The notes under the pieces are model-generated. The model was not told where the DNA came from and did no database searches. It was given only the letters and a program-made list of their open reading frames with translations. 46,637 nucleotides of DNA from an uncultured bacterium. GTDB lineage: Bacteria; Margulisbacteria; WOR-1; XYC2-FULL-46-14; WPAF01. The stretch covers positions 1 to 46,637 of the forward strand of contig CAIYXV010000118.1 in assembly GCA_903930225.1 (NCBI GenBank), in the 5' to 3' direction. A program made the position numbers and the translations under genes. Shown here piece by piece: positions 100-4,153 of the stretch; within the stretch, counting starts at the first letter, position 1; every line of letters begins with the position of its first letter.

Positions 100-275
100 C
101 AGGGATTCAAATAGGGAAAAAGAGGGAGGCTCCATGCTCCGCATGGAGGGAGAAAAAACGGGAGTTTTTTCTCCGGGGGAGCAGTGGAGCGAAGCGGAAC
201 GTCGAGGGGGCAAAGCCCCCTTGAAGCGCAGGCGCAGTGAGCAGAGCGAACATAGCCGAGCAGTGAGAGTCCCTG
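100..275. repeat. multi-hairpin palindromic element upstream of GIY-YIG gene
   Basis: Closing stem CAGGGATTC(100-108)/GAGTCCCTG(267-275), one G-T wobble; internal perfect hairpins CTCCATGC-tcc-GCATGGAG (130-148), GGAGAAAAAA-cgggag-TTTTTTCTCC (149-174), AGGGGGC-aaa-GCCCCCT (205-221). Confidence 0.6.
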
Positions 276-1393: not shown

Positions 1394-1843
1394 ATGAAGA
1401 TAACTTATAAAGGTGATTACGCGTTGAAGGCAGTGATGGATCTGGGCTCTCACACTGGGGAGCCTCAATCCGCGGATCAGATCGCCCGGAGGCAGGATAT
1501 CCCGTTCAAGTTTTTAGAGCAGATCATGCTGCTGCTGAAGAAGGGCGGATTTGTAAAAGCGCAGAGAGGGAAAAAGGGCGGATATCTTTTGACCAGATCG
1601 CCGGCAAAGATCACGATGGGCGAGGTGCTGCGTTACATCGAAGGGCCGGTCGAGCCGATCGCGTGCGTGCGCAAAGGCGGGGAAAGGACCTGCAGTTACG
1701 CCAGCCGGTGCAGCCTCAAAGATGTCTTTGATGATATCGGGAAATACACGGCCAAAATAGTTGACGGCATAACGTTTGAGGACCTGATCAATAAACAGGC
1801 AAAAAAAATGAAAATGCGCGGCCCCGACATGTATTATATATAA
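1394..1843 (+). CDS. Rrf2 family transcriptional regulator
   Basis: MKITYKGDYALKAVMDLG N-terminal wHTH, KGGYLLTRSPAKITMGEVLRYIEGP, Cys cluster CVRKGGERTCSYASRCSL. Confidence 0.93.
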   Translation: MKITYKGDYALKAVMDLGSHTGEPQSADQIARRQDIPFKFLEQIMLLLKKGGFVKAQRGKKGGYLLTRSPAKITMGEVLRYIEGPVEPIACVRKGGERTCSYASRCSLKDVFDDIGKYTAKIVDGITFEDLINKQAKKMKMRGPDMYYI

Positions 1844-1894
1844 TATAATACTTGAGCGGGGCGGATTGAATCGAATGTAGAGAAATATATTTAG

Positions 1895-3199
<1,305 letters not shown>

Positions 3200-3223
3200 A
3201 TTAATTGAAAGAAGGGGATCAAT

Positions 3224-4153
3224 ATGGGAAAAATATTTGAAAGCATAACTGAAACTGTGGGGAACACTCCGCTGGTCCGGCTGAATAAGCTGGCCCAGGG
3301 AGCGGGGGCGACTGTGCTGGTTAAGGTAGAATCGTTCAATCCATTATCCAGCGTAAAGGACCGGATCGGCGTTGCCCTGATCGAGGACGCGGAGAAAAAG
3401 GGGCTGATTAAGAAGGATACTGTGATCATTGAACCGACCAGCGGCAACACGGGGATTGCGCTGGCTTTTGTCGCGGCCGCAAAAGGGTACAAGCTGATTC
3501 TTACCATGCCGGAGACGATGAGTATTGAGAGGCGCCAGCTGTTCAAAATATTCGGTGCGGAACTTGTGCTTACCGAGGGACCAAAGGGGATGAAGGGAGC
3601 GGTGGCAAAAGCGGAAGAGCTGGTCAAATCAACGCCCAACAGCTTTATGCCCCAGCAGTTCAACAATCCCGCCAATCCGGAGATCCACAAAAAGACCACG
3701 GCGGAAGAGATCTTAAAAGATACCGGAGGCAATATCGATTATTTTGTGGCGGGAGTGGGCACCGGGGGGACGATTACCGGAGTGGGCGAGGTGCTGAAAA
3801 AAAGATCGAAGAATGTGAAGCTCATCGCGGTCGAACCGAAAGATTCACCCGTGCTGTCCGGAGGCAACCCCGGTCCGCATAAGATACAGGGTATCGGAGC
3901 CGGATTCGTGCCGCAGGTGCTGAATACGAAACTGATCGACGAGATAATCCAGGTGGAAAGCGCCGATGCCGGGAACATTGCCCGAAGGCTTGCCCGGGAA
4001 GAAGGCATACTGGCCGGAATTTCGAGCGGCGCGGCTCTCTGGGCGGGGCTTGAGGTCGCCAGGCGCCCGGAAGCGAAAGGAAAAACTATCGTTGTCCTTC
4101 TCCCTGATAGCGGGGAAAGATATTTAAGCACCTGGCTGTTCGGTGAGCAATGA
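3224..4153 (+). CDS. cysK: cysteine synthase A
   Basis: [51 protein letters not shown]. Confidence 0.95.

Follow-up and report, generated by a model that had tools for sequence, protein, structure and literature searches.

The window analysed here, a stretch of 46,637 nucleotides, corresponds to contig C118 in a metagenome-assembled genome of 1.69 Mb, and near its start it carries two features on the forward strand: an insertion element without any ORF and with multiple hairpins (positions 100-275), which we call element A; and a small, UPF0213-like GIY-YIG nuclease gene (313-561), which encodes 82 amino acids and starts 213 bp past the first base of element A. The element is closed by a 9-bp stem with one wobble (CAGGGATTC at 100-108 with GAGTCCCTG at 267-275), and this stem encloses hairpin 1 (CTCCATGC/GCATGGAG, 130-148), hairpin 2 (GGAGAAAAAAC-GGGA-GTTTTTTCTCC, 149-174), which is the conserved core, and hairpin 3 (TCGAGGGGGC-AAA-GCCCCCTTGA, 202-224). 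The fold energy of this segment is -79.8 kcal/mol, compared to -53.7 ± 4.0 kcal/mol for shuffled sequences (z = -6.6; 0 of 200 shuffles were as good). The original prediction, made from the letters of the window, had described the closing stem, the three hairpins and a short GIY-YIG ORF about 210 bp after the start of the element, all of which we confirm; the repeated words that it listed are also present, but they are short palindromes of a kind that is frequent in these genomes. The GIY-YIG protein scores 66.4 bits against PF01541 (curated cut-off 22.6), which places it in the GIY-YIG superfamily, and its closest solved relatives are UPF0213 proteins. Further downstream (1394-4153) are ORFs that, by eye only, resemble an Rrf2-type regulator, an O-acetylhomoserine sulfhydrylase and a cysteine synthase.

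Element A is dispersed, as the original prediction had proposed for this structured segment, and it is not single-copy: contig C42 of the window's own genome (G000) holds one partial copy with 90% identity and one weak fragment. Using two covariance models (the first built on eight copies, the second on thirteen), we found 15 copies scoring at least 50 bits in 9 of 74 genomes of the phylum Margulisbacteria (WOR-1/Saganbacteria), a count that includes the copies used for training, since the second model was trained on most of the 15, and that leaves out hits below 35 bits (G066:C243, G068:C63, G016:C2, and G065:C209). All of these genomes are draft or metagenome-derived, except for one single-contig genome. 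The named relatives that have the core of the element are WOR-1 and Saganbacteria, i.e., Margulisbacteria; and a strict DNA pattern returned only two records from the GTDB contigs, again Saganbacteria/WOR-1. No Rfam family above its gathering threshold covers element A, no match to Intron_gpI (RF00028) lies at element A in the window, L010, L011, L014, or L053-L055, and no DNA match to the element was found in the phage collection.

The helices of element A covary. In the alignment of thirteen copies, compensatory changes are found in 11 of the 22 pairs, compared to 5.6 ± 1.4 for shuffled alignments (0 of 500 were as good), and the signal is lost when the pairing partners are slid; by helix, 4 of the 11 pairs of hairpin 2 (with 96.5% of cells paired) and 6 of the 8 pairs of hairpin 3 show compensatory changes. 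The element also has conserved unpaired motifs (GAAAAG and GGGG..CAG). Covarying helices, conserved unpaired motifs and a location on the same strand as the tRNA (see below) would all be expected if element A were a functional non-coding RNA, co-transcribed with tRNAs as a riboregulator or processing element and duplicated along with tRNA 3′-ends; we consider this quite improbable, since the presence of the element is patchy: it occurs in nine of the 74 genomes, beside different tRNAs, and is missing in a congener at the same locus.

Nine of the 15 copies have an intact tRNA gene 35-190 nt upstream, on the same strand: tRNA-Glu (in two genomes), tRNA-Gln (in two), tRNA-Tyr, tRNA-Leu, tRNA-Met, and two tRNAs whose anticodon arm holds a group I intron. 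In most of these nine, an exact duplicate of at least 14-17 bp of the 3′-end of the upstream tRNA abuts the right end of the element, spanning from the T-loop to the discriminator base or slightly past it; for example, the tail is ATTCCCCCTGGGGCTA after tRNA-Glu in G014, ATTCCAGCCCGGGGAG in G010, and AATCCTTCCCTCTCCA after tRNA-Tyr in G019. The copy in G065, found by the second model only, has the same layout, and there the duplicate also covers the CCA and ends only after the complete terminator hairpin and its T-run. The other six copies have no visible intact tRNA; they are located at contig ends or have a tRNA 3′ tail only. In three loci (L012, L013, and L014), CCA is encoded in the intact tRNA but is lacking in the duplicated tail. 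Group I introns in tRNA anticodon arms were located at 1077-1313 in L012, 1086-1353 in L060, and 1322-1661 in L034; in L012 and L060, element A is directly downstream of the intron-bearing tRNA.

Large integrative elements classically land in tRNA genes; when a tyrosine integrase inserts at a T-loop, the tRNA is restored and a 3′ tail remains as attR. Element A has the T-loop insertion point, the regenerated tRNA and the 3′ tail by which such elements are recognized, and its order of intact tRNA, element, and 3′ tail (from the T-loop to the 3′-end) resembles tRNA att sites; it could thus be a miniature remnant, decayed or a satellite island, of a tyrosine-integrase element, with the tail as attR. 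We regard this as unlikely. The insertions are tiny (about 60-300 bp), too short to encode an integrase, though one might act on them in trans, and no integrase ORF was seen where sequence was read; in addition, one conserved covarying core is found across at least five tRNA isotypes, with many isotypes per family. An integrase origin would explain the tails, but neither this core in several isotypes, nor the inverted, host-matched left arm of the element, nor the mirror layout of the nuclease loci, the latter two being described next.

The left end of element A is an inverted T-arm (GGATTCGAACC against GGTTCGAATCC), and it is matched to the host tRNA: the left arm is GGACTTGAACC for a tRNA-Met with GGTTCAAGTCC, CTGGATTCGAAC for the tRNA in G010, and GCGGATTCGAACC for a tRNA-Cys, the last in a related insertion in C93 without a covariance model hit; at the tRNA-Gln of G066 the match is 22 nt long and reaches into the acceptor. 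Among the ten copies with a known host, the mean match of the left arm is 10.1 to the T-arm of its own host, and 7.2 to those of other hosts (permutation p = 2e-5, with tail and arm boundaries fixed by eye prior to the test; p = 0.004 without the three strongest copies). The left arms of L010 and L014 do not fit this pattern. A comparison of left arms to tails, which was made first, gave a weaker signal (for the close family by itself, p = 0.04); the claim is therefore based on the comparison to host tRNAs. Judged by these arms, the closing stem of 100-275 is best described as an inverted T-arm paired with the tail. Such an arm is not expected of integrase remnants. It could instead belong to a new class of insertion element, in which the left arm base-pairs with the T-arm of a tRNA to choose the target and insertion goes via the tRNA transcript, with GIY-YIG enzymes that cut T-arms as helpers; the duplication would then run from the T-loop to the 3′-end of the transcript, and the left arm would be copied from the host tRNA. 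We hold this proposal to be rather unlikely.

Empty sites were found for two loci by comparing G011 and G014, which belong to the same genus. At the tRNA-Glu locus of G014, three broken 5′ copies of tRNA-Glu precede an intact one, which is followed by a spacer, element A, and the tail, while G011 has a single clean tRNA-Glu in flanks that are 93% identical to those of G014 (like the duplicated tails mentioned above, the empty tRNA-Glu of G011 has no CCA). At the tRNA-Asp locus, G011 has one tRNA-Asp, and in G014 about 911 bp separate the upstream flank from the tRNA; this insert contains a nuclease ORF and a broken second tRNA-Asp, whose anticodon arm and T-loop hold palindromes and whose 5′ leader is duplicated too, over at least 25 bp. 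This pair of filled and empty loci confirms that the segment of about 911 bp is an insertion. Presence and absence of the gene at a fixed target site with an uninserted allele, as is typical of homing endonucleases, is seen for this relative of the window gene (filled in G014 and empty in G011), and not for the window gene itself.

The small GIY-YIG genes form a separate set of tRNA-locus elements. We examined 114 of them from a phylum-wide search: 57 have an intact tRNA at most 200 bp away, in all 57 cases on the same strand, where 1.9% would be expected (a genome-wide expectation, with 43-46 tRNAs per genome); probabilities computed for this association are too small, because the genes share ancestry and were treated as independent. 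Within the class, 50 of 75 are near a tRNA, and many others are located at contig ends; none of the 15 viral GIY-YIG relatives lies within 200 bp of a tRNA. Two layouts are found. Class 1 has the intact tRNA upstream; of 27 such loci, 7 show a significant 3′ tail of this tRNA behind the gene, mostly outside the tRNA-Gln/Asn clade. In class 2 a 5′ copy of the tRNA comes first, then the nuclease gene, and then, 19-140 nt on, the intact tRNA of the same kind; among the 37 loci where a tRNA lies downstream, the 5′ copy is present in 30, and it is broken by a palindrome, in the D-loop, the anticodon arm or the T-loop (the T-loop cases always directly after GTTC). This mirror layout, with the 5′ copy upstream and the intact tRNA downstream, is seen in half of the nuclease loci, which argues against the integrase origin considered above. 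The phylogeny of the small GIY-YIG proteins tracks tRNA isotype: their tree needs 28 isotype changes, versus 41-48 with shuffled labels, and 3 layout changes, versus 15-23. The window gene belongs to a homing-endonuclease-like group of mobile genes, in line with the link to homing endonucleases made in the original prediction. In one locus of G000 (L004; G000:C93:261-479), a small GIY-YIG frame with an in-frame TAA lies among several tRNA 3′ fragments, and we read it as a decaying copy.

No tRNA is visible beside the copy of element A in the window: its left flank (1-99) ends at the contig start, with the host tRNA expected beyond and not assembled, and the candidate tail is only 9 nt long. 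This tail is found at the right end of the element (GAGTCCCTGT, 267-276), where AGTCCCTGT (268-276) is identical to the 3′ segment of the T-loop and T-stem in the tRNA-Gln of relatives (L017, L018, and L020), a weak match of 9 nt; it is a probable truncated tRNA tail. The CAGGG/CCCTG of the closing stem fits the T-stem of tRNA-Gln, the inverted, T-arm-like left arm complementing the CCCTG of its 3′ strand. In the protein tree the window GIY-YIG protein falls in the class-1 tRNA-Gln/Asn clade, in which the expected 3′ tail after the gene was mostly not detected, and a sister protein sits 35 nt downstream of a tRNA-Gln(ctg). A DNA search of the window's own genome with the tRNA-Gln(ctg) of a relative returned only the tRNA-Gln(ttg) on C56 and a 20-nt match, an outcome compatible with loss of the host tRNA at the contig end, though no proof of it. 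Two distinct tRNA-locus elements appear to be stacked here at a single locus, probably of tRNA-Gln, that is cut by the contig end; most likely, a copy of element A entered a tRNA-Gln gene in which a class-1 GIY-YIG element was already present. The leftover AGTCCCTGT and the clade of the GIY-YIG protein agree with this reading.

The adjacency of nuclease and fold had led to the view that the two form a conserved cassette, in which the fold would serve as a guide or a recognition site. The window does show a GIY-YIG gene adjoining the fold, but no other solid copy of element A has such a neighbor, and the GIY-YIG genes examined elsewhere lack a solid copy of the element, an outcome that the original prediction had itself named as refuting; the cassette is largely refuted by this, and we consider it highly improbable. 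Insertion into tRNA genes is the common denominator of the two features, which was not visible in the window alone.

We consider it likely that element A and the separate GIY-YIG set are selfish elements that occupy tRNA genes, the tRNA being kept whole by partial duplication. Element A would be a non-coding, structured, non-autonomous mobile element that targets the T-arm of tRNA genes; its insertion would leave an intact tRNA upstream and a duplicate of the tRNA 3′-end (from the T-loop to the acceptor, once through the terminator) at the right border, and with this duplicate the host would keep a working tRNA. The GIY-YIG ORFs lie with an intact tRNA on one side and a broken, partial copy of that tRNA on the other. 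Insertion may be started by GIY-YIG cleavage in the T-arm, and repair that copies the inserted allele may produce the duplication. GIY-YIG enzymes may also act on element A in trans as helpers, which is only a guess since the window's copy alone adjoins a GIY-YIG gene.

The nearest functional relative is SegB of T4/T6, a GIY-YIG homing endonuclease that is free-standing, resides in the tRNA regions of phages and is reported to drive duplication and amplification of tRNA segments (PMC2988022, PMC13096335). Both systems have an intron-less GIY-YIG enzyme beside tRNA genes that it targets, in our case presumably; SegB, however, is a phage enzyme for which we saw no palindrome-bearing partial tRNA copy described, whereas here the proteins are chromosomal, single-domain and 82 aa long, and involve many isotypes. 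In architecture, the nearest relatives are the fungal mitochondrial mobile ORFs with duplicated gene ends in Glomus (atp6, atp9, cox2, and nad3) and Allomyces (atp6), in which an endonuclease ORF (GIY-YIG in atp9) lies in a gene and carries or duplicates its end, so that the host gene stays whole (Glomus and Allomyces, PMC3630166); those are mitochondrial protein genes, whereas here bacterial tRNA genes are involved, and the duplications are of the 5′ or the 3′ part. CPR and related genomes are known to have group I introns in tRNA genes (PMC8172020); some tRNAs here carry them as well, and the GIY-YIG gene of L034 overlaps a group I intron match. In contrast, element A and most GIY-YIG loci do not match the group I introns of Rfam and leave an unspliced, intact tRNA. 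We found no paper in the open-access literature on bacterial GIY-YIG genes with partial tRNA copies, and it seems that no bacterial insertion system built in this way has been described there before. What seems new is the combination of tiny nuclease genes and ORF-less structured elements in bacterial tRNA genes that are kept alive by partial duplication. Such a system would explain the abundance of small GIY-YIG genes in these genomes, the source of tRNA fragments, and the contigs of the window's genome that end at tRNA loci; and it opens the question of how tRNA-gene duplications arise to experiment, with enzymes of 80 residues and their cognate tRNA genes.

In the window's own genome, a partial tRNA copy is found near 12 of the 39 tRNA genes, and eight contigs (C1, C27, C61, C93, C100, C108, C118, and C128) have a start or an end that lies no more than a few hundred bases from tRNA genes or from these elements, which suggests that the assembly was broken by these repeats. 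The same genome has other insertions at tRNA genes. At the tRNA-Gln(ttg) on C56 (L190), a different structured insertion of 297 nt (element C) is followed by an exact tRNA-Gln tail, CGAGTCCCTGTCCCCCAG. Double-hairpin elements, GC clusters and REP-type palindromes are, like element A, short, palindromic or structured, ORF-less insertions, here too inside tRNA loops, but the conserved multi-helix core of element A is larger, and its ends derive from tRNA. Double hairpins of about 30 nt (TCCGCC..GGCGGATCCGCC..GGCGGA) are found at tRNA-Pro, tRNA-Thr, tRNA-Leu, and tRNA-Met genes of G000 (L183, L191, L197, and L198), where they sit in the T-loop, directly after GTTC, of a tRNA 3′ tail located 40-67 nt downstream of the intact tRNA.
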